Shown: in pieces, positions 53,715 through 63,979 of the stretch
Position numbering within the stretch: position 1 is the stretch's first letter
How the letters are laid out: each line of letters opens with the position of its first letter
DNA from: Novacetimonas maltaceti
Lineage (GTDB): Bacteria > Pseudomonadota > Alphaproteobacteria > Acetobacterales > Acetobacteraceae
Assembly (NCBI RefSeq): GCF_002906255.1
Contig: NZ_POTC01000002.1
Coordinates: 62,001 to 126,000 of the forward strand
Length of the DNA: 64,000 bases
Reading direction: 5' to 3'
Position numbers and translations under genes: made by a program
The notes under the pieces: generated by a model
Seen by the model: the letters and a program-made list of their open reading frames with translations, nothing else
Database searches by the model: none
What the model was told of the DNA's origin: nothing

Positions 53715-53753
53715 AAAAAAGGGCCGTGGCATTCCCCTGCCACGGCCCTTTTT
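53715..53753. terminator. Bidirectional intrinsic terminator
   Basis: GGGCCGTGGCA (53721-53731) pairs with TGCCACGGCCC (53738-53748). A-run and T-run flank it on both sides, so it can end both the isocitrate dehydrogenase transcript and the incoming urate operon. Confidence 0.9.
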
Positions 53754-53845: not shown

Positions 53846-54202
53846 TCAGCTTCCGCGATAGGTCGAAAACCCGTAGGGCGAGACCAGCAGCGGGACATGG
53901 TAATGCCCCCCCTTCTCCCCCGCCGCACGCTGCGCCATGCCGAATGCGATCGGCACGACATCAAGGAACGGCGGGTCCGACAGCGCCACGCCGCGCCCAC
54001 GGAAATAGGCCGCGACCGCGAATTCCAGCCGGTAGGTCCCGGCTTTCATATCCCCCACTGCCGCCGACAGGTCGGGACAGCGCCCGTCCGTGTTCGTCAC
54101 GCCGGCAAAGAGGCGCTCATTACCCGACCACAGGGTAATTTCCATTCCCGCCGCAGGCTGCCCCGACACAAGGTCAAGGACATGGGTCGAAAGGGTGCTC
54201 AT
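53846..54202 (-). CDS. uraH: 5-hydroxyisourate hydrolase (transthyretin-like)
   Basis: HIU hydrolase converts 5-hydroxyisourate to OHCU, the second step of urate breakdown. The 118-residue protein has the N-terminal LSTHVLDLVSGQPAAGM with the active-site His, the arginine-containing VTNTDGRCPDL, HYHVPLLVSPYGFSTY and the diagnostic C-terminal YRGS. It is the last gene of the urate operon and overlaps uraD by 4 bases. No signal peptide is present, so it acts in the cytoplasm. Confidence 0.96.
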   Translation of the reverse strand: MSTLSTHVLDLVSGQPAAGMEITLWSGNERLFAGVTNTDGRCPDLSAAVGDMKAGTYRLEFAVAAYFRGRGVALSDPPFLDVVPIAFGMAQRAAGEKGGHYHVPLLVSPYGFSTYRGS

Positions 54203-54726
54203 GGCGTTTCCTCCAGCCGTTTGAGGATATCGGCCTGCCGCAGGGCCGCGATCTTCGCGATTTCGTCGAGGGCCGCGCCAATCTCCGTCTCCGGGTCATG
54301 CGCCAGCCGCCGCTCCATCTCGTCCAGGATCCGTGCCTTGTCCGACAGCCGCACGCAGATGATGAACGGAATGCCGAATTTGGCCGCATAGGCATCATTG
54401 AGCGCCCGGAACCGCGCGAATTCCTCCGGCGTCAGGCGGTCCAGCCCGGCCGAGGCCTGTTCACTGGCGGATGCGTCCGTCAGCGTCGGGTCAACCCCGG
54501 CCAGCCGGGCCAGTTCGGGATGCGCGCGGATCAGGGCCATCTGCTGCGTATCGGTGGCGCGGCGCATTTCATGCACCATGACCCGCAGCATGTGCGCTTC
54601 GTCATCAAAGGGCCGGTAATCCAGCGCCTGTTCCGCCACCCATGGGGAATGTTCGAACATCGGGCCGAACAGTTCGATGAAACGGGCCTCATCCAGCGCG
54701 TTGGCGCGTGCAATGGCCGATGTCAT
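54199..54726 (-). CDS. uraD: 2-oxo-4-hydroxy-4-carboxy-5-ureidoimidazoline decarboxylase
   Basis: OHCU decarboxylase produces S-allantoin in the third step of urate breakdown. The 175-residue all-helical protein has the conserved IRAHPELA segment with the catalytic His, the region around TPEEFARFRALNDAYAAKFGIPFIICVR and a final helix bundle. ATG 54726 overlaps the puuE stop (ATGA), and its own stop overlaps uraH; the three are clearly coupled. A longer open frame upstream has no matching sequence. Confidence 0.95.
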   Translation of the reverse strand: MTSAIARANALDEARFIELFGPMFEHSPWVAEQALDYRPFDDEAHMLRVMVHEMRRATDTQQMALIRAHPELARLAGVDPTLTDASASEQASAGLDRLTPEEFARFRALNDAYAAKFGIPFIICVRLSDKARILDEMERRLAHDPETEIGAALDEIAKIAALRQADILKRLEETP

Positions 54727-55637
54727 GCCGGATGCACCGCAAGCCAGTGGCGCGCGATCTCCAGCCGGGTCGTCACCCACACCTGTTCCTTGCCGGCGAT
54801 GTAATCGAGGAACCGGGCCACGGCGCGCGCACGCCCCGGACGCCCGGCCACGCGACAATGCAGCCCCACCGACATCATCTTCGGCGCGCTGGCCCCTTCC
54901 TCATACAGTTCGTCGAACGTGTCGCGCAGGTAGCGGAAGAACTGCTCCCCTTCGGTAAAGCCGTTCAGGGCGACGAAACGCATGTCATTCACATCGAGCG
55001 TATAGGGCACGATCAACTGCGCCCGGCCATTGCTGCGGTCATAGTACGGCAGGTCATCGGCATAGGAGTCGGCGTCATAGACAAAGCCGCCTTCCTGCGC
55101 GACGAGGCGCGCGGTATTGGGGCTGGTGCGGCCCTGGTACCAGCCCAGCGGGCGCGACCCGGTCACCTGTGTATGCAGGGCGATACATTCCTCGATATGG
55201 GCGCGCTCCACCGCTTCGGGGATGTGCTGGTAATCGATCCAGCGCAACCCGTGAGAGGCGATTTCCCACCCGGCATCCTTCATCGCACGCACCGCGTCGG
55301 GATTGCGGGCCATGGCCATCGCGACACCGAATACCGTCACCGGCTGGCGGCGCTGCGTGAAAATCCGGTGCAGGCGCCAGAACCCGGCACGCGCGCCATA
55401 TTCATACAGGCTTTCCATCGCGATCGCGCGCGCGCCGGGAATCGACGGCGCACCGATCATTTCCGACAGGAACGCCTCCGACCCGCGATCACCATGCAGG
55501 ATGGAGTTCTCGGCCCCTTCCTCGTAATTGATGACGAACTGCACCGCGATACGCGCGCCACCGGGCCATTTCGGGTCGGGCGGTGATCCGGCATAGCCGA
55601 CCAGGTCACGCGGATATCCGTTGGGCTGCCCCATCAT
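54723..55637 (-). CDS. puuE: Allantoinase, PuuE type (polysaccharide-deacetylase fold)
   Basis: PuuE opens the allantoin ring to give allantoate without metal-dependent amidohydrolase chemistry. The 304-residue protein has the NodB/deacetylase-like fold with VINYEEGAENSILHGD near the N-terminus and GWEIASHGLRWIDYQ. The PuuE-type segments GWYQGRTSPNTARLV and MSVGLHCRVAGRPGRA follow. Start ATG 55637 (or 55634) lies right after the aminotransferase stop. It is unlike the classical AllB allantoinase, and none of that kind is present. Confidence 0.93.
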   Translation of the reverse strand: MMGQPNGYPRDLVGYAGSPPDPKWPGGARIAVQFVINYEEGAENSILHGDRGSEAFLSEMIGAPSIPGARAIAMESLYEYGARAGFWRLHRIFTQRRQPVTVFGVAMAMARNPDAVRAMKDAGWEIASHGLRWIDYQHIPEAVERAHIEECIALHTQVTGSRPLGWYQGRTSPNTARLVAQEGGFVYDADSYADDLPYYDRSNGRAQLIVPYTLDVNDMRFVALNGFTEGEQFFRYLRDTFDELYEEGASAPKMMSVGLHCRVAGRPGRARAVARFLDYIAGKEQVWVTTRLEIARHWLAVHPA

Positions 55638-55638
55638 C

Positions 55639-56868
55639 TCACTCCCCATATTCCGCAAGGGCGGCATCCACGGCACGGCCGGAAACAAGGCCATGCCCCT
55701 CCTGCCGCAGCACCGCCTCCAGCGCGCCAAGCGTGAGCAGCACCTTGTGCTTCGCCGCGTTGTAGCCCATTGCGCCAATGCGCCAGATCCGGCCCTGCAG
55801 CGGACCGAAGGCGGAACCGATCTCGATCTCGAAATCCTCGCGCATGCGCGTGCGCACCTTCTCGCCATCAACGCCTTCGGGGATGTACACCCCCGTCACG
55901 TTGGCCATGCGGTGTTCGTCACTGCCGAACAGCGTCAGCCCCATCGCACGCAGGCCAGCACCCATTGCGCGGCTTGCTGCGGCATGGCGGGCGAAACGCG
56001 CCTCCAGCCCTTCCTCGACCATGATGCGCGCGGCCTCCCGCGCGGCATAGAGCATGCTCGTCGCCTCGGTATGGTGGTTCAGCCGCTTTTCGGACCAGTA
56101 ATCCATGATCATGGCCAGGTCGAAATAGTTCGAGGCGATGCGCGCGCGCGTGCCATCCGTGGTGTTCGCGCTGCGGATCCCGGCCTCCACATGGCGACGC
56201 GACATGATGTATGCGGCGGCACGGTCCGAAATCGTGATGGGCGAGGACCCCGGCGGCCCCCCCATGCATTTCTGCAGGCCGCCCGTCACGATATCCACGC
56301 CCCACCGGTCGGTCGCAACCGGCATCCCGCCCAGCGTCGCCGTCGCATCGACATAGGACAGGACATCATGCCTGCGGCACAGTTCCCCCACCCCGTCGAG
56401 CGGCTGGGCCATGGTGGTGGAGGTATCGCCATGGATGCACGCCAGCACGTTCGGGCGGTGCGCGATGATGCCGTCCTCGATCTGTTTCAGGGTCGCGACC
56501 TCGCCCCACGGGATGTCGATGGTGAAGATCTCCGCGCCGATCCGCTGCGCGATTTCCGACAGCAGCAGCCCGAAGCGTCCCGCCCGCACGATCAGCAGCC
56601 GCGATCCCGGTTCGAGGAGCGAGACCAGCGCCGCCTCGATCCCCGCGCGGGCCGTGCCGTCAACCAGAAGCGTCCAGCGGTTTTCCGTCATGAAGACCGT
56701 ACGGTACAGCGCCATCGTCTGGTTCATGTATTCCGTCATTTCCGGGTCGAACTGCCCCAGCATGTCGGCGGCCATGGCACGCAGCACGCGCGGATGCACG
56801 TTGACAGGCCCCGGCCCCATCAACATGCGCGAGGGGGGGTCAATCTGACCAAAAATGTTCTGTGTCAT
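55639..56868 (-). CDS. (S)-ureidoglycine-glyoxylate aminotransferase
   Basis: This 409-residue class V aminotransferase uses PLP on Lys200 (GGLQKCMGGPPG). It moves the amino group of ureidoglycine to glyoxylate, giving oxalurate and glycine. The N-terminal GPGPVNVHPRVLRAM and the GTARAGIEAALVSLLEPGSRLL segment are typical of this group (PucG/UGXT). Related alanine-glyoxylate aminotransferases share the fold, but the gene's position within a urate operon beside allantoate hydrolase favours ureidoglycine as substrate. It overlaps the upstream gene by one base. Confidence 0.9.
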   Translation of the reverse strand: MTQNIFGQIDPPSRMLMGPGPVNVHPRVLRAMAADMLGQFDPEMTEYMNQTMALYRTVFMTENRWTLLVDGTARAGIEAALVSLLEPGSRLLIVRAGRFGLLLSEIAQRIGAEIFTIDIPWGEVATLKQIEDGIIAHRPNVLACIHGDTSTTMAQPLDGVGELCRRHDVLSYVDATATLGGMPVATDRWGVDIVTGGLQKCMGGPPGSSPITISDRAAAYIMSRRHVEAGIRSANTTDGTRARIASNYFDLAMIMDYWSEKRLNHHTEATSMLYAAREAARIMVEEGLEARFARHAAASRAMGAGLRAMGLTLFGSDEHRMANVTGVYIPEGVDGEKVRTRMREDFEIEIGSAFGPLQGRIWRIGAMGYNAAKHKVLLTLGALEAVLRQEGHGLVSGRAVDAALAEYGE

Positions 56869-58136
56869 CAGGAACGTCTTTCAAAAAGGCACACGAAATC
56901 CGTCAGCGCGCGCAGGGCGACCTCCACATCCGCCGCCGTCACGGCCTCGGCGGGATTGTGGCTGATGCCCTTTTCACAACGGATGAACAGCATGGAGACG
57001 GGGGCAAGGTGCGCCATGACCATCGCATCATGGCCCGCGCCACTGACCAGCACGCGCGCGGGCGTCCCGGTCACGTCCGCCACCGCCTGTTCCATCAGGC
57101 CGGTCAGGCGCGCATCGCACGGGGTGGCGTCAAGGTCCTGCTGCAACGTCACGTCAAGGATGATGTCGCGCCGCGCCGCAATCTGGCGGATGCCGTCGAT
57201 GATCTCCCGCGCGGCCGCATCGCGCACCGCATTGGTGCCCGCGCGGACATCGATGGTGAACATCACGTCGCCGGGCACCACATTGGCCGCACCGGGCTGC
57301 ACCTCCAGCCGTCCCACCGTCGCGACAAGGTCGGCAGGCCCGTTGCGGCCGACCCGCTCCACCGTGCCGATCGCCTCCGCCGCAGCCGCCAGCGCATCGC
57401 GGCGCAGGTGCATGGCGATCGTGCCCGCATGCCCCGCCATCCCCTGCATCGTCACGCGGTAACGGTGCTGCGCCGCAATCGCGCTGACCACGCCCACGGC
57501 GCGGCCTTCGGCCTCCAGCACGGGGCCCTGCTCGATATGCGCCTCGACATAGGCCAGCACGCGGCCGGGGGCGATCCGGGCCTCGTCGATCGCGGCAAGG
57601 TCGAGGCCGAATTCCGCCAGCGCTTCGGCCAGCGTGATCCCGTCGCGGTCGGCCATCGACAGGTCGAACCCGTCACGCACCCCCGCCACCGTGCGCGAAG
57701 TCAGCATGGCGGCGGGAAAGCGCGAGCCTTCCTCATCCCCGAACCCGATGACCTCGAGCGCGAAGGGAAAGCGCCGCCCTGCCCGCGCGAAGCTGGCGAC
57801 CACCTCGATCCCGAGGATCACGCCCAGCATCCCGTCGTAACGCCCGCCATCGCGCACGCTGTCCACATGCGACCCGATCAGCAGCGATGGCGCGTCCGCT
57901 GTCGTGCCTTCGTACCGTCCGACCACATTCCCCACGGCGTCAACGCGCACGGACATGCCCGCGTCATCCATCCACCCTGCGATCCGGTCCAGCGTCGCGC
58001 GGTATCCCGCGCCAAGGTAGGGACGGAACAACCCGTCCGCATCATCGGAATAGGGCGCGGATCCCAGCAGGTCACACCGCGCCAGCGCACGCTGCCCCGA
58101 AGGGGGCGGGGCGGAAATCGGCTGCAATCCTACCAT
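56868..58136 (-). CDS. allC: Allantoate amidohydrolase (M20/AllC family)
   Basis: The 422-residue binuclear metal hydrolase removes ammonia and CO2 from allantoate to give ureidoglycine. Metal-binding motifs are visible: SHVDSVRDGGRYDGMLG, the EEGSRFPAAML pair of glutamates, HIEQGPVLE and the late SGAGHDAMVM. Members of this family also hydrolyse ureidoglycolate or N-carbamoyl amino acids. The neighbouring PuuE (upstream step) and aminotransferase (downstream step) favour allantoate. It overlaps hpxW upstream by 7 bases. Confidence 0.87.
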   Translation of the reverse strand: MVGLQPISAPPPSGQRALARCDLLGSAPYSDDADGLFRPYLGAGYRATLDRIAGWMDDAGMSVRVDAVGNVVGRYEGTTADAPSLLIGSHVDSVRDGGRYDGMLGVILGIEVVASFARAGRRFPFALEVIGFGDEEGSRFPAAMLTSRTVAGVRDGFDLSMADRDGITLAEALAEFGLDLAAIDEARIAPGRVLAYVEAHIEQGPVLEAEGRAVGVVSAIAAQHRYRVTMQGMAGHAGTIAMHLRRDALAAAAEAIGTVERVGRNGPADLVATVGRLEVQPGAANVVPGDVMFTIDVRAGTNAVRDAAAREIIDGIRQIAARRDIILDVTLQQDLDATPCDARLTGLMEQAVADVTGTPARVLVSGAGHDAMVMAHLAPVSMLFIRCEKGISHNPAEAVTAADVEVALRALTDFVCLFERRS

Positions 58137-59731
58137 GCTGCGACTCCCCCGTCGCTGCGCGGGTCGGTGGCCCCTTCGATCAGGCCGGTCTTTTCATGGC
58201 GCACCAGCGCGCCCGCATGCCCCATGGTGGAGGTGAACGGCCCCATCCGCTCCATCTGATGGCCCGCCGCCTGCATGCGCGCGATCAGTTCGGGGTCAAA
58301 GCGATCCTCGTATTTCAGGCTGACGCTTTCCTCCCCCCATGTCCGGCCCAGCAGCCAGCGTGGCGCGGTGACCGCGCGCTGCAATGGCACGCCATAACAG
58401 GCATAACGGGTGAAGACGGCCGCCTGCGTCTGCGGCTGCCCCTCCCCCCCCATGGTGCCATAGACCATGGTCCGCCCGTCATCGAGGCGCGCGCCAGCGG
58501 GATTGAGGGTATGGAACGGCTTGCGCCCCGGACGCAGGCCATTCCACCCGTCAGGGTCCATGCCGAAACTGGTACCGCGATTCTGCCACACCACGCCGGT
58601 GCGCGGCAGGACGACGCCCGACCCGCATTCGAAATACAGGCTCTGGATCATGCTGACGGCCAGCCCGTCGGAATCGATCACGCCCAGCCATACCGTATCC
58701 CCCGCCTGCGACGGATGGGGCCACGGGGCCGCGCGCTGCGGGTCGATGGAGGCCGCCATGCGGTCCAGCGCGCCCGCATCGTCAAGGATATCCTGCGCCT
58801 GCACCGTCATCAGCGCCGGGTCGCCCACATGCGTGTCACGATAGCGGAAGGCAAGCTTCGTCGCCTCCACCAGCGTGTGCATGTAGTCATAGCTGTCCAC
58901 CTTCGCCGCGCGCAGGCGGTCGAACAGCGACAGGATCAGCAGCGAGGCCACGCCCTGCGTCGGCGGCGCGACGTTGTAAAGGTCCGCGCCACGGATGCGC
59001 GCATGCAGCGCGGGCTGGTGCACGGCGCGATGCGACTGCAGATCCGACAGCGCAAGCGGACTGCCCAGCGCCGCAAGGTCGGCGGCAAGGTCGGCGGCAA
59101 TGCGCCCGCGATAGAAACTGTCCAGCCCCTCATCCGCGAGCACGCGCAGCGTGCGGGCAAGGCGCGGGTTGTGCAGGATGTCGCCCGCATGCGGCAGGCG
59201 GCCTGCCGGCATGAACTGATCGGCGAAACCGGGAACGGCACGCAGTTCATCAACCTTGGCGCGCGTGATGTCCGCGGCCCCGGCCGTAACCGGCACGCCC
59301 TGTTCGGCGTAATAGATCGCATCCGCCAGGATCCGGCCCAGCGGCAGGCCGGGCTGGATCGCGTGGCTCCATGACAGGGCCATGTCCCACCCGGACACCG
59401 TGCCCGCGACCGTGTTCGCCGCAAGCGGCCCACGCCACGGGATACGGTCCAGCCCGGCATTGCGGTAGAATGCGACATCGGCCTTCATGGCCGCGGCCCC
59501 GCTGGCGTCGATGCTTTCCGCGCGCCCGTCCGGCCACAGCGTCAGCCAGAACGCATCACCGCCAATGCCCGTCATGTGCGGGTAGACCACCGCCAGCGCC
59601 GCCGCCGTGGCGACGGCGGCCTCGATCGCCGTGCCCCCGGCCTTGAGGATGTCCAGCCCCGCCTGACTGGCGAGGTGATGGGGCGATGTCACCATCCCCC
59701 GGCAGGAGCGCGGCGTGTTGAGCATGGTCAC
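58130..59731 (-). CDS. hpxW: Gamma-glutamyltransferase-family Ntn hydrolase, probable oxamate amidohydrolase (HpxW-like)
   Basis: The 533-residue protein has the gamma-glutamyltransferase fold, with autocleavage and nucleophile at Thr346 in AGDTVWLGVIDSDGLAVS, where true GGTs have a TTH-type motif. No signal peptide is seen, unlike periplasmic GGT. In Klebsiella, HpxW of this family hydrolyses oxamate to oxalate and ammonia in purine breakdown. The start FMVTSPHHLASQAGLDIL-like segment (SCRGMVTSPHHLASQAGLDI) and GGEGQPQTQAAVF fit that subgroup. Its place between allantoate hydrolase and an AtzE-type amidase supports a role in this pathway. Confidence 0.8.
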   Translation of the reverse strand: MTMLNTPRSCRGMVTSPHHLASQAGLDILKAGGTAIEAAVATAAALAVVYPHMTGIGGDAFWLTLWPDGRAESIDASGAAAMKADVAFYRNAGLDRIPWRGPLAANTVAGTVSGWDMALSWSHAIQPGLPLGRILADAIYYAEQGVPVTAGAADITRAKVDELRAVPGFADQFMPAGRLPHAGDILHNPRLARTLRVLADEGLDSFYRGRIAADLAADLAALGSPLALSDLQSHRAVHQPALHARIRGADLYNVAPPTQGVASLLILSLFDRLRAAKVDSYDYMHTLVEATKLAFRYRDTHVGDPALMTVQAQDILDDAGALDRMAASIDPQRAAPWPHPSQAGDTVWLGVIDSDGLAVSMIQSLYFECGSGVVLPRTGVVWQNRGTSFGMDPDGWNGLRPGRKPFHTLNPAGARLDDGRTMVYGTMGGEGQPQTQAAVFTRYACYGVPLQRAVTAPRWLLGRTWGEESVSLKYEDRFDPELIARMQAAGHQMERMGPFTSTMGHAGALVRHEKTGLIEGATDPRSDGGVAAW

Positions 59732-61098
59732 TTACTCCCCATGGTCAGCGGCGTGCAGCGGGCCAGTCCCGCGCGTTGCAGTTCCGCCGCCACGGCGAAC
59801 AGGGCGGCCTCCGCCCCCGGCGCGCCGATCAGTTGCAGCCCCAGCGGCAGGCCCGACGGGTGCGCCAGCGGCGCGGACAGCACCGGCACGCCTGCAAGGC
59901 TGATGGGCTGGGTGAACAGGCCAAGGTTGGCACGGGCCGAGACCTCGCGCCCCTCCACCATGATGGTCGGCTGGTCGATGCGCGGCGCGGGGCCGACGGT
60001 TGCGGGTGCGACCAGAACGTCATGCTGGCTGAACAGTTCGTGGATGCGCGTACGGAACCAGCTACGGAAACGCTGCGCCTGCACCAGCGTGGCTGACGGC
60101 AGCATCGCGCCCGCCATCAGGCGGCTGCGCGTGGCGGGGTCGTACTGCATTGCGCGCTGGCGCAGACGGGCGAGGTGCAGGCTGCCGCCTTCGGCCGCGG
60201 TGATCAGGAAGGAGGCGGCACGCGCACGCGCGGCCTCGGGCAGTTCGATGACCGTCGTGCTGTTGAGATGGCGCATCACTTCGTCAATGGCGGCAACGAA
60301 ACCGGCGTCGATATTCCGCGCGAACCATCCGCCAAGCCGCGCGATCCGCAGCGACGCGACATCGGGCAGCGCATCGGGCGCGCGGCCGTCCATGACCGCG
60401 AACACGGCGCGCAGGTCTTCAACCGTATCGGCCATTGGCCCCACGACATCGAGGCTGGCGGCAAACGGATAGGCCCCGTCACGCGGCAGGCGGCCGAATG
60501 TCGGCTTCAGCCCCCACACGCCGCACAGTGCTGCGGGCAGGCGGATGGAGCCATTGGTGTCCGACCCCAGCGTAAACGGCATCAGGCCCGCCGCGACCGC
60601 CGCCGCCGAACCACCCGACGACCCACCGGCAAGGCAGGCGGGGTCATGCGGGTTGCGCGTCGTGCCGGTATGCGCGTTCTCGGTGGAGAAGCCGTAGGCG
60701 AACTCGTCCATGTTCAGGCTGGCCACCGCGATCGCGCCCTGCGCCTGAAGGCGCGCGACGACGGTTGCATCGCGTGTTGCAGGCGGATTGCCGCGCAGGA
60801 CGAGGGAACCCGCCGTCGTCACCTCGCCCGCGATGTCGAACAGGTCCTTGACCCCGAACGGAACACCCGCCAGCACGCCGGGGTCCTCCCCCCGGGCGAT
60901 GCGCTGGTCGATGCCTTCGGCACGCGCCACGGCGGCGGGGCCGAAGATGCGCGTGACACTGTTGAAGCGGGTGTCGCGTGCCTCCATGTCGGCAATGACG
61001 CCGGTGATGACGGAAACCGCGCTGCGCCGTCCGGCGCGCACGTCCTGCGCGATCTGCAGCGCCGTGCCCGGATGCTGCGTGTCATGTGCCTGCGTCAC
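59728..61098 (-). CDS. AtzE/HpxY-like amidase-signature hydrolase
   Basis: The 456-residue amidase has the Ser-cisSer-Lys triad: Lys84 in GVPFGVKDLFD, the cis-Ser in GGSSGGSAAAVAAG (about residue 160) and the nucleophile Ser184 in SDTNGSIRLPAALCGVWGLKPTFGR. It resembles AtzE, the 1-carboxybiuret hydrolase of cyanuric acid breakdown, and HpxY of the purine cluster. AtzE needs the small protein AtzG, and an AtzG-like gene overlaps its start here by 4 bases. The likely substrate in this context is oxalurate, by structural analogy; that is inference. Confidence 0.83.
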   Translation of the reverse strand: MTQAHDTQHPGTALQIAQDVRAGRRSAVSVITGVIADMEARDTRFNSVTRIFGPAAVARAEGIDQRIARGEDPGVLAGVPFGVKDLFDIAGEVTTAGSLVLRGNPPATRDATVVARLQAQGAIAVASLNMDEFAYGFSTENAHTGTTRNPHDPACLAGGSSGGSAAAVAAGLMPFTLGSDTNGSIRLPAALCGVWGLKPTFGRLPRDGAYPFAASLDVVGPMADTVEDLRAVFAVMDGRAPDALPDVASLRIARLGGWFARNIDAGFVAAIDEVMRHLNSTTVIELPEAARARAASFLITAAEGGSLHLARLRQRAMQYDPATRSRLMAGAMLPSATLVQAQRFRSWFRTRIHELFSQHDVLVAPATVGPAPRIDQPTIMVEGREVSARANLGLFTQPISLAGVPVLSAPLAHPSGLPLGLQLIGAPGAEAALFAVAAELQRAGLARCTPLTMGSK

Positions 61099-61325
61099 GG
61101 GATGTACTCCCCGGCCGGTTCACACGTATCGGGCAGGACAAAACCATTCAGCAGGTCGGCATATCCCTGCAGCAGCGCGGCATTCGCGGCCACGTCGTTC
61201 ATGCAGGCGGCCGGGACGCCCAGCCCGATGCAGCGCGCGGCCTGGACCACTGGAAAGATGTCATCGCCGCCCTGCGCCACCGGCATCGGTGGTGGCACCG
61301 CATCGTCATTCATGGGGCTGCTCAT
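61095..61325 (-). CDS. AtzG/HpxX-like small subunit (DUF4089)
   Basis: The 76-residue product matches the AtzG-like (DUF4089) group of small subunits that bind AtzE-type amidases. A helical C-terminal half carries the family look: CIGLGVPAACMNDVAANAALLQGYADLLNGFVLPD. The N-terminal 25 residues are Pro/Met-rich. It overlaps the AtzE-type gene by 4 bases and starts 42 bases after the flavoprotein gene. Coupling with AtzE is as in Pseudomonas ADP, where the two form a complex. Confidence 0.82.
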   Translation of the reverse strand: MSSPMNDDAVPPPMPVAQGGDDIFPVVQAARCIGLGVPAACMNDVAANAALLQGYADLLNGFVLPDTCEPAGEYIP

Positions 61326-61367
61326 GCGCTTCGTCTCCCGGAGCTTTGTGTCGTTTACCGACTTCTT

Positions 61368-62834
61368 TTAGACGGGATCACATGCAGGGGGGTCAAGGCT
61401 GATCAGTTCGGGGGTGTCATACGACAGCAGGCTGTCAAGATGGGCCTGCCCGTCCGCGACATACAGGTCGCGCCCGATCCCCTGGGCAAGGCGTTCGACA
61501 CCAAAGCGCATGCCGCTGATGGAGGCGCCCGAAAGGCCCATGCTCGGCGTGGCGGAGAAGGTGAAGTTGTGGATGTTCGCCAGCATCGGCGCCAGCGGGT
61601 CCGCCGGGTCGCGCGCGACGAACTGGTACCGCTCCCCAAGGTAGGGATAGCTGCCCAGAACCTCGCTTTCCTCGCCCGCGGGCGGGGTATAGCGCTCCCC
61701 CCACAGGGCCACGGCATGCGCGAACGAACGGGTTTCGGGACGGCGTGACAGGTCCACGGCAAAGCCGGTGCCGATGATGACGAAATCGAACGCCATCTCC
61801 CCCTTTGGGGTCTGCACCACGACCTCGTCCCCGCGCATGGATACGCCCTGCCACGGACAGCCGGTGTGATAGGCGAAATTCGCATGCCTGCGGCAACGCC
61901 AGAACGTATCCTGCGGCGGTGGCTGGTTCAGTTCGAAGATGCGCCGCATGAAGCCCCAGCGCAGCCGGTCCTCCAGCGCGCAGAAATAGGCGAGGAAGCC
62001 CGTGTTCTCCATCCAGCGGTACGGGTTGATGGAGGGGATTTCCTTACGGCGCAGGCACAGCGTGACCGACGCCGCCCCGGCCTCAAGCGCGGTGGCGGCA
62101 TTGTCGAAGGCCGAGGCCCCCGCACCCAGCACGCCCACGCGCCGGCCCTTCAGGGCCGCGAAATCAATGGATTCGGATGTATGGGCGAAGCGGTCGCGCG
62201 GCAGGCTGTCGCGGATGAAGGCGGGCACATGCCATTCGCCACATCCCTCGATCCCGGTCGCAAGCACCAGTTTGCGCGCGTAATGGACCTGCTGTTCCCC
62301 GGCCGCGTTACGGAACGACAGGCGCAGCAGCCCGTCTTCCCACGTCACCCCTTCGAACGCATGGTCGTTGGCGACCGGCAGGTCGAGGATGTCGCGATAC
62401 CAGTCCAGGTAGGCCTGCCAGTCCTGGCGCGGGATCTTGTCGAGCTTTTCCCACGCCTGCACGCCATAACGGGCCTCGAACCAGGCGCGCGGCGTCAGGC
62501 TGGGCACGCCAAGGTCGGGGCCGGTGACATATTTGGGCGTGCGCAGGGTGATCATGCGCGCGAACGTGACCCATGGCCCCTCGCCGCCGCGCGGGGCACG
62601 GTCGAACACCTGCACGTTGTCGATGCTGCCGCGCTTGAGCGCGAACGCGGTGGCAAGCCCCCCCTGCCCCGCGCCGATGATCGCGACATCAAGCACCCGC
62701 CGCCCGTCATGATAGCGCGCAGGCACCCATTCACGCCGGGGATAGCCGATGATCCCGAGGTCACGCCGCACGGCCCTGCCGAGCGCGCCAAGACCATCGC
62801 GTGCATCCGTGCCGTCATGTCCGTGCATCGTCAT
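61368..62834 (-). CDS. FAD-dependent monooxygenase-like protein, candidate urate-pathway oxidase
   Basis: The 488-residue flavoprotein has an N-terminal FAD-binding motif (VAIIGAGQGGLATAFAL, glycines at 54-59) and a second nucleotide-binding motif GVLGAGASAFDNAATALEAG for NAD(P)H. Just before the second lies RFAHTSESIDF, resembling the class B FMO fingerprint. It is not a class A flavoprotein like HpxO or HpyO. It is the first structural gene after the LysR gene in the urate operon, and no other urate oxidase is visible, so it is a candidate for the first step. It could equally act on another N- or S-containing compound. Confidence 0.75.
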   Translation of the reverse strand: MTMHGHDGTDARDGLGALGRAVRRDLGIIGYPRREWVPARYHDGRRVLDVAIIGAGQGGLATAFALKRGSIDNVQVFDRAPRGGEGPWVTFARMITLRTPKYVTGPDLGVPSLTPRAWFEARYGVQAWEKLDKIPRQDWQAYLDWYRDILDLPVANDHAFEGVTWEDGLLRLSFRNAAGEQQVHYARKLVLATGIEGCGEWHVPAFIRDSLPRDRFAHTSESIDFAALKGRRVGVLGAGASAFDNAATALEAGAASVTLCLRRKEIPSINPYRWMENTGFLAYFCALEDRLRWGFMRRIFELNQPPPQDTFWRCRRHANFAYHTGCPWQGVSMRGDEVVVQTPKGEMAFDFVIIGTGFAVDLSRRPETRSFAHAVALWGERYTPPAGEESEVLGSYPYLGERYQFVARDPADPLAPMLANIHNFTFSATPSMGLSGASISGMRFGVERLAQGIGRDLYVADGQAHLDSLLSYDTPELISLDPPACDPV

Positions 62835-62877
62835 CTGCCTGTCCCACTGTCATTCGCGTCGTTACCGATGCAGCGGC

Positions 62878-62899
62878 CATGGCGTCCCCCGACGCCATG
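62878..62899. repeat. 9-bp perfect inverted repeat in lysR-flavoprotein gap
   Basis: CATGGCGTC (62878-62886) and GACGCCATG (62891-62899) are perfect inverted repeats around CCCC, giving a stable hairpin 44 bases upstream of the flavoprotein start. It may be a leader hairpin or protein-binding site. Confidence 0.5.
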
Positions 62900-62967
62900 A
62901 TAGGCTGTCCCCCCAACCGCACCGTTGATGCAACAGTGTAATCAGGCGGGCAGGTGTTTCGTCCAGT

Positions 62968-63002
62968 AGAATGATTTGACCATTCTGTTTCCTAAAACAG
63001 AA
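62968..63002. promoter_or_regulatory. Overlapping inverted repeats, candidate operator of the urate operon
   Basis: AGAATG and CATTCT are perfect inverted repeats around 7 bases (62968-62986). TTCTGTTT and AAACAGAA are perfect inverted repeats around CCTA (62983-63002). The two overlap and stand between the LysR gene and the first structural gene, where a LysR-type regulator would be expected to bind. A third, imperfect repeat lies at 62920-62938. Confidence 0.45.
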
Positions 63003-63022
63003 CAGCAGACCGGAACAGGCGC

Positions 63023-63979
63023 TTACAGCACCTGCTCGTCCCCCACCCCCTGGATGCGGCGCAGTTCCTGGCGCAACTCCTCGATCACCGTTTCCAGCAA
63101 CGGCGGCAGCCAGCGCGATTCCCGCACATAGACGCCAAGGTCCGTCACCGCGCGCGTATCGCGCAGCGGCACATGGCACAGGCGTTCATGCCCGGCCTGC
63201 ATTTCCACCGCCAGCGGCGACTGGAACGCAAGGCCGCTGCCGGCGGCGACCATGCGGTTGGTCAGTTCGATGGACCCCGTATGCAGCACGACATGCAGGT
63301 GTTCGTGCCACGGGCGCAGCATCGGTTCCATGACACGGTACAGCGACAGGGTGCGCGTCGGCAGGATCAGGCGGTGGCGGACGCACTCCTCGATCGTGAC
63401 GGTGCGCAGGTGCGCGACGGGGTGGTCGGGGCGCACCACCGCGCCGACCGGGAAATGCGCCACCGCGACACGGCGCAGGTCGGGATACAGCGCCAGCGAA
63501 AACGCGATGCCAAGATCGACGCTGCCATCCTGCAGGGCGGAGACGATATTCTTGGGCGAGCCGATTTCCACATTGAGGTCCACGGCCGGATACATCCGCG
63601 TGATCCGTTCAAGCAGTGGCGGCAGGAGTTGCCCTGTCACGCCCTCCACCGCCATGATCCGCAACCGCCCGTCCTGCCGGCCGGACAGGGCGTTGATCTG
63701 CTCCTCCGTGCGGGCGGCGTCCTGCATGACGGTGACGATGTGCCGCGCCATGATGCGTCCCACCTCCGTCAGGACCATGCCTTCGGGCAGGCGGTCGAAC
63801 AGCGGCGCGCCCACCTCCGCCTCCATCTGCGCCAGTTGCCGGGTCAGGGCGGAGGGCGTGACGTTCAGGCGGCGCGCGGCCTCGCGGATGGAACGGCATT
63901 CGCGCACGGCGTTGAAATAGGAAATCCCCCGCGCGTGCAGGCGCATCATGCGCGGGGTACGCAGGAGGGGCTCACTCAT
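63023..63979 (-). CDS. LysR-family transcriptional regulator
   Basis: The 318-residue protein has an N-terminal winged helix-turn-helix (about 17-75: ISYFNAVRECRSIREAARRLNVTPSALTRQLAQMEAEVGAPLFDRL), a linker helix, and a two-lobed effector-binding domain from about residue 100. It stands at the 5' end of the urate operon on the same strand, with inverted repeats in the 188-base gap before the first structural gene. It is therefore the likely regulator, with a purine or ureide as ligand. The start ATG 63979 lies 21 bases from the window end. Confidence 0.9.
   Translation of the reverse strand: MSEPLLRTPRMMRLHARGISYFNAVRECRSIREAARRLNVTPSALTRQLAQMEAEVGAPLFDRLPEGMVLTEVGRIMARHIVTVMQDAARTEEQINALSGRQDGRLRIMAVEGVTGQLLPPLLERITRMYPAVDLNVEIGSPKNIVSALQDGSVDLGIAFSLALYPDLRRVAVAHFPVGAVVRPDHPVAHLRTVTIEECVRHRLILPTRTLSLYRVMEPMLRPWHEHLHVVLHTGSIELTNRMVAAGSGLAFQSPLAVEMQAGHERLCHVPLRDTRAVTDLGVYVRESRWLPPLLETVIEELRQELRRIQGVGDEQVL

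Follow-up and report, generated by a model that had tools for sequence, protein, structure and literature searches.

A route from oxalurate to oxalate is known in outline from Klebsiella, where it is linked to the hpxWXYZ genes that also occur in Serratia and other enterobacteria (ggt-atzG-atzE-atzH in PMC6219798). The present analysis concerns a related operon of Novacetimonas maltaceti, found in a window of 64,000 nucleotides (the whole stretch of DNA that was analysed; contig NZ_POTC01000002.1, positions 62,001 to 126,000). Like the enterobacterial set, it has HpxW, AtzG/HpxX and AtzE/HpxY homologues beside ureidoglycine-glyoxylate aminotransferase (UGXT) and allantoate amidohydrolase (AAH). 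It differs in also carrying the urate-to-allantoate genes, in having its HpxZ homologue on another contig, in an AtzG with no match to the HpxX model, and in an AtzE that falls in another clade than enterobacterial HpxY and is no closer to Klebsiella HpxY (46.7-47.5% identity) than to pADP-1 AtzE (47.7%). The best explanation of this gene content, and a likely one, is a complete urate-to-oxalate operon in which AtzE/AtzG and HpxW would form the oxalurate branch.

Other described systems share parts of the set. The atzDGEHF cyanuric acid operon of Pseudomonas sp. ADP includes homologues of the window's AtzG and AtzE, and its AtzH has a homologue elsewhere in the source genome; the window set, in contrast, lies among urate genes, and neither AtzD nor AtzF was found among the ten operon proteins scanned. 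In pADP-1, 1-carboxybiuret undergoes the analogous reaction through AtzE, and the simplest role for AtzH is to decarboxylate the product of AtzE (PMC6219798). The Zymomonas mobilis plasmid pZM33 (DctA-AAH-UGXT-AtzH-AtzG-AtzE) has adjoining UGXT and AAH genes and an AtzE of the window's clade (60.8% identical); there, however, the HpxZ-like gene is linked, between UGXT and AtzG (130.6 bits, just below the HpxZ cut-off of 135), and no HpxW was found in the stretch. The AllFGH oxamic transcarbamylase of E. coli likewise takes oxalurate to oxamate, but by phosphorolysis to carbamoyl phosphate and with unrelated proteins, and K. pneumoniae is without this route (PMC11326118).

NCBI models and database records call HpxX and HpxZ "oxalurate catabolism protein". 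HpxY was named oxalurate amidohydrolase in a 2025 paper (PMC12625717, citing Huynh and Stewart 2023), whose figure legend instead names it oxamate carbamoyltransferase, and the activity of HpxW on oxamate is cited in PMC5270733 to Hicks and Ealick 2016. No published assay of oxalurate as a substrate for AtzE or HpxY was found in the literature searched, which excluded most subscription papers; the available text of PMC7520893, on Drosophila gut bacteria and purines, has nothing on bacterial urate genes, and that of PMC4016543, PMC10656689 and PMC10117892 has no bearing on the AtzE step. The first-pass annotation of the window had proposed the oxalurate branch. As a reading the branch stands as the best one, backed by co-occurrence and by rearranged gene orders, but the idea is that of the enterobacterial hpxWXYZ arrangement, the claim to novelty was mostly wrong, and the HpxZ partner had been overlooked. 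What is new here is modest, namely where HpxZ lies, a descent of the window AtzE that is probably separate, and a stand-in amidase of the NF006169 type.

Proteins of the proposed oxalurate branch

The window AtzE scores above two curated NCBIfam cut-offs (NF006631, 602 versus 461 bits; TIGR02715, 586 versus 426) and keeps the Lys-Ser-Ser motifs. These motifs were uninformative about the substrate, being identical in pADP-1 AtzE, Klebsiella HpxY and the window AtzE. By AtzE identity the closest loci are those of Gluconacetobacter entanii (96%), Novacetimonas hansenii (93%) and N. cocois (89%), which places the source among the acetic acid bacteria of the Acetobacteraceae. The adjoining AtzG passes its Pfam model (Table 1) and has no NCBIfam match, including to the HpxX model NF033624, which pADP-1 AtzG likewise fails (21 versus 70).

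The HpxW protein matches both chains of the structure 5hft (4.3e-92 and 1.5e-80), and its Thr346 aligns with the first residue of chain B, the beta chain. We take 5hft to be the Klebsiella oxamate amidohydrolase; the depositors' name is gamma-glutamyltranspeptidase. From its nearest structure and Thr346 the product is assigned as HpxW, with a predicted activity on oxamate. The gene was rejected as a gamma-glutamyltransferase, with a score of 315 below the cut-off of 358 and 5hft as nearest structure. In two other genomes HpxW adjoins an oxalate/formate antiporter gene (L131:8992-12017 and L149:6200-9200, with no AtzE or UGXT match in the stretch), a placement that fits oxalate as the HpxW product.

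Among solved structures the window UGXT is nearest to 3nnk, named ureidoglycine-glyoxylate aminotransferase (1.2e-153), followed by PucG (1.4e-126) and then by a match at 6.2e-89, so that its predicted identity as the enzyme making oxalurate is well supported. Two other identities for this class-V enzyme were rejected, pyridoxamine-pyruvate aminotransferase (179 versus a cut-off of 600) and aspartate-glyoxylate aminotransferase (155 versus 650), and in both cases the PDB ranking places UGXT first. Neither HpxW nor UGXT passes a specific NCBIfam model. The source genome, searched as 162 contigs at 99.99% completeness, holds a second UGXT (86% identical) adjoining a second AAH (70%) on contig C33 (L124:8366-11031); no AtzE or HpxW match was found beside it in the 12 kb stretch.

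Urate would be converted to ureidoglycine by an HpyO-like hydroxylase, 5-hydroxyisourate (HIU) hydrolase, UraD, PuuE and AAH, and UGXT would pass one nitrogen to glycine, leaving oxalurate. AtzE/AtzG would then hydrolyse the ureido end of oxalurate with release of ammonia, the resulting N-carboxy-oxamate would lose CO2 to give oxamate, probably aided by the unlinked HpxZ, and HpxW would split oxamate into oxalate and ammonia. Neither carbamoyl phosphate nor urease would be required for recovering all of the urate nitrogen in this way. The earlier statement that the operon has no recognised carbamoyltransferase holds for the ten scanned proteins, and AllG (PF06545) had no match in the whole source genome, the E. 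coli control being positive; the search of the whole genome did not extend to AllF, AllH or other carbamoyltransferases. Urease alpha (PF00449) had no match in the source genome either. Breakdown of the oxalate by oxalyl-CoA decarboxylase was rejected, the best score in the genome being 165 versus a cut-off of 739; other oxalate enzymes were not searched.

Co-occurrence in Acetobacteraceae

Neighbourhoods were surveyed for the best 80 of 448 relatives of the window AtzE, with fixed bit thresholds. UGXT or AAH was present in the fetched stretch at 72 of the 80 loci (at one, L041, through a 37% AAH paralogue), and these 72 loci included HpxW in 58 cases and HpxZ in 18. AtzG, a short and diverged protein, was detected at 65 of the 80. 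Among the eight loci left over, L025 is truncated by the end of its contig, and HpxZ and HpxW are both present at L049.

A second survey covered 150 Acetobacteraceae genomes with E-value limits of 1e-90 for UGXT, 1e-100 for AtzE, 1e-100 for HpxW and 1e-20 for HpxZ-like proteins; 27, 78, 23 and 87 genomes were positive, respectively. AtzE was present in 26 of the 27 genomes with UGXT versus 52 of the 123 without it, and HpxW in 20 of 27 versus 3 of 123 (Fisher 4e-16). In one of these last three, G209, the cluster lies at a contig end; by its coordinates it is the L031 genome, with UGXT cut off. HpxZ was found in 69 of 78 AtzE genomes versus 18 of the 72 others (6e-16). In the UGXT genomes HpxW always came with AtzE (20 of 20) and AtzE without HpxW in six, as would be expected if AtzE acts first. 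The comparison supports three associations: AtzE goes with UGXT, HpxW follows AtzE, and HpxZ goes with AtzE.

Rearranged gene orders were also seen. Ten Acetobacter loci have the order AAH-UGXT-HpxZ-AtzG-AtzE without a linked HpxW; nine of the ten genomes carry HpxW (58-62%) elsewhere, the remaining one (G014) being a metagenome bin. An HpxW of at least 50% identity was present in 21 of the 25 genomes checked, the exceptions being G014, G022 and two Commensalibacter. One locus of this order, in Acetobacter pomorum (L028:6796-20665), faces genes for xanthine dehydrogenase, a permease, HIU hydrolase, UraD, PuuE and HpyO, and thus gathers a near-whole purine pathway at one site, with HpxW elsewhere in the genome.

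The unlinked HpxZ

The first-pass annotation let N-carboxy-oxamate lose CO2 and overlooked the decarboxylase-like HpxZ/AtzH. No such gene is present in the operon, and the source genome has one homologue, on contig C25 among unrelated genes, which passes the NCBI model NF033625 (163 versus 135 bits). By plain numbering AtzH residues 22 and 46 correspond to Ala and Ala/Val, with Tyr and Arg sitting three residues earlier; the source HpxZ would keep the Tyr and Arg needed according to PMC6219798 if the numbering there runs three above the annotated start. In the ten Acetobacter loci the gene placed between UGXT and AtzG encodes an HpxZ 62-70% identical to that of the source.

With the source HpxZ as query, 50 genomes, mostly picked for a stretch lacking HpxZ, were searched, and the protein was present in 42; among these, that of L028 is a linked control and that of G060 is only 47% identical with an internal stop. 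It was not found in the other eight (G001, G021, G029, G045, G046, G048 and both Commensalibacter), where small contigs are missing and some absences may be artefacts.

Evidence against and alternative explanations

Several observations weigh against the proposed pathway. Six acetic acid bacterial AtzE loci (L038, L052, L064, L068, L070 and L085) have no UGXT, AAH or HpxW nearby and argue against a strict tie of AtzE to urate, as do the 52 of 123 genomes that have AtzE but no UGXT, some of them with AtzE near AtzF. HpxZ occurs in 20 of 27 genomes with UGXT versus 67 of 123 without it, a difference that is not significant (p 0.08), and all co-occurrence p-values given here ignore shared ancestry. 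The seven UGXT genomes in which HpxZ was not found include the nearly closed G115 (5 contigs) and the single-contig G071, so HpxZ cannot be essential. The latter, a 2.7 Mb Acetobacteraceae genome, has an operon with AtzE (L133:4700-12100), and neither HpxW nor HpxZ was found at the limits used; the pathway there may stop at oxamate. Moreover, the AtzE/AtzG substrate, the order of deamination before decarboxylation and the role of HpxZ are inferred.

Could AtzE/AtzG instead attack the same carbonyl and expel oxamate directly, the carbamate then decaying to ammonia and CO2? The net products would be the same, no N-carboxy-oxamate would arise, and HpxZ would have some other use. The absence of HpxZ from seven of the 27 UGXT genomes fits such a course, as do 13 UGXT regions outside the family that have another amidase and no detected AtzG or HpxZ. 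The strong co-occurrence of AtzE and HpxZ, however, speaks against it, and in the cyanurate pathway the product of AtzE is the N-carboxylated one (PMC6219798); we regard direct release as unlikely. Cleavage of the oxalyl amide bond, with oxalate and urea formed in a single step and HpxW serving another substrate, is chemically possible but has nothing specific in its favour. No urease alpha was found in the source genome, so that the urea nitrogen would be lost, and HpxW would be left without a role beside AtzE, yet 58 of the 72 AtzE loci that include UGXT or AAH also have it. This course seems highly improbable.

A different proposal gives AtzE/AtzG some other ureido or biuret substrate, such as ureidoglycolate, carboxybiuret or triuret products of urate, and has oxalurate go elsewhere. 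The closest assayed AtzE does act on 1-carboxybiuret, and some Acetobacteraceae have AtzF in the vicinity of AtzE (L144, L147 and L150). On the other hand, no AtzD-like or allophanate hydrolase gene is present among the ten operon proteins scanned, the 38-row clade of the window AtzE comes mostly from UGXT or AAH loci, and the UGXT product would have no enzyme to act on it; we consider the proposal improbable. Hydrolysis of oxalurate by AtzE/AtzG, followed by decarboxylation and the action of HpxW, is the course we prefer. The candidates for the step from oxalurate to oxamate are narrowed to one amidase and one decarboxylase-like partner that can be dispensed with, and natural variants in which HpxZ or HpxW is either present or lacking can be used for testing. 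If correct, the pathway would explain how urate nitrogen is fully recovered in organisms lacking urease or oxamic transcarbamylase, and it would hint at the origin of the cyanurate-degrading AtzE/AtzG/AtzH set.

UGXT regions outside the family and descent of the amidase

When 397 genomes of the phylum were searched, 26 outside Acetobacteraceae proved to carry UGXT, and their 26 regions were examined with one in-family region (G111). Outside the family AAH was present in 26 of 26 regions; 25 had an amidase no more than about 10 kb away, and 21 had HpxW; over all 27 regions the counts are 26, 25 and 21, and only G111 lacks AAH. L179 and L187 had no amidase in range. Since the source genome has only three amidase-family genes in 3.6 Mb, an amidase at UGXT loci is far above chance. 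Eleven regions, which share the family code f52, have HpxW, AtzG/HpxX, AtzE/HpxY and HpxZ together and are probably enterobacterial, judging by a 63-81% match to Klebsiella HpxY. Thirteen others have a shorter amidase, about 30-41% like AtzE, with HpxW in ten and no detected AtzG or HpxZ; the five of these amidases that were scanned all pass NF006169 (Table 1). In L161, AtzE and HpxZ lie about 7 kb from UGXT, with no HpxW in the region.

In a tree of 74 amidases the window AtzE falls in a 38-row clade (100/100) whose members come from acetic acid bacteria, Sphingobium and Zymomonas. The enterobacterial HpxY proteins form a separate 9-row clade (100/100) inside a group that also holds pADP-1 AtzE and AtzE of other settings. 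Forcing the two urate-linked clades together was 32 log-likelihood units worse (approximately unbiased test, p 0.03), the groups having been named after the tree was seen; this is moderate evidence that the window AtzE is probably not the sister of Klebsiella HpxY. The NF006169-type amidases have long branches and are placed outside the AtzE rows. It seems that an amidase entered the pathway two or three times, and such repeated entry is the best argument for an amidase carrying out the oxalurate step. We tentatively suggest, as a possibility short of an even chance, that three lineages (AtzE/AtzG of acetic acid bacteria, Sphingobium and Zymomonas; HpxY; NF006169) were each recruited for oxalurate beside UGXT and HpxW, and that AtzE/AtzG/HpxZ is an old purine-nitrogen set borrowed by the cyanuric acid operon.

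On an Acidithiobacillus caldus plasmid (L129:1297-12997) a single run combines genes for subunits of xanthine dehydrogenase, for ureidoglycolate lyase and for a ring-opening amidohydrolase (40% to AtzD) with AtzG-AtzE-HpxZ and a gene resembling gamma-glutamyltransferase. The Klebsiella record CP125156.1 (L126), filed as a plasmid, is probably a chromosome at 5.4 Mb; its HpxW is unannotated, with a match in two pieces.

Operon layout

Ten co-directional genes occupy positions 53846-63979 of the minus strand (Table 1). Profile searches and the best solved relatives confirmed that the genes named in the first-pass annotation are present at their positions and that the operon had been read correctly; gene content, order and family membership are direct observations. 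By its domain families and neighbourhood the oxidoreductase is a candidate HpyO-like urate hydroxylase (PMC4562309 describes HpyO, whose characterised form is from Xanthomonas); it has no close relative among solved structures. HIU hydrolase and UraD accompany AtzE at 42 loci, and a homologue of the oxidoreductase is present at 39 of these.

Table 1. Features of the operon region (window positions) and NF006169 amidases of other genomes
Feature	Position	Strand	Evidence or remark
LysR-type regulator	63023..63979	-	upstream of operon, co-directional; PF03466 and PF00126 above cut-off
FAD/NAD(P)-binding oxidoreductase, candidate HpyO-like urate hydroxylase	61368..62834	-	PF13738, 47 vs 30 bits
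AtzG-like small subunit	61095..61325	-	PF13318, 34.1 vs 24 bits
AtzE-family amidase (HpxY-like), candidate oxalurate amidohydrolase	59728..61098	-	NF006631 and TIGR02715 above cut-off; best solved relative 6c62
HpxW, predicted oxamate amidohydrolase	58130..59731	-	best solved relative 5hft; Thr346 at chain B start
Allantoate amidohydrolase (AAH)	56868..58136	-	NF006775, 602 vs 479 bits
Ureidoglycine-glyoxylate aminotransferase (UGXT), predicted oxalurate maker	55639..56868	-	best solved relatives 3nnk, 3isl (PucG)
PuuE-type allantoinase	54723..55649 (start 55649 or 55637)	-	TIGR03212, 536 vs 425 bits
UraD, OHCU decarboxylase	54199..54726	-	TIGR03164, 184 vs 96 bits
HIU hydrolase	53846..54202	-	TIGR02962, 111 vs 87 bits
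Terminator-like 16-pair hairpin, A-run and T-run	53716..53753	.	between operon end and convergent dehydrogenase gene
NF006169 amidase in AtzE seat beside UGXT	L166:5656-6840, L167:12772-13962, L172:13020-14234, L181:6580-7773, L183:5754-6947		HpxW in 4 of 5; AtzG/HpxZ not detected

A scan for terminator-like sites gave 3 versus 5.5 expected from shuffles, and the hairpin at the operon end stands out by stem length only; the promoter scan found none, with 1.4 expected from shuffles. Overlaps of 1-7 bases, as first described, fit six junctions (HIU hydrolase/UraD 4, UraD/PuuE 4, UGXT/AAH 1, AAH/HpxW 7, HpxW/AtzE 4 and AtzE/AtzG 4) but not PuuE/UGXT, which overlap by 11 bases or are separated by one depending on the PuuE start (55649 or 55637), nor AtzG and the FAD gene, which are 42 bases apart. 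The gene order is repeated in relatives, and the operon arrangement is therefore not due to chance.

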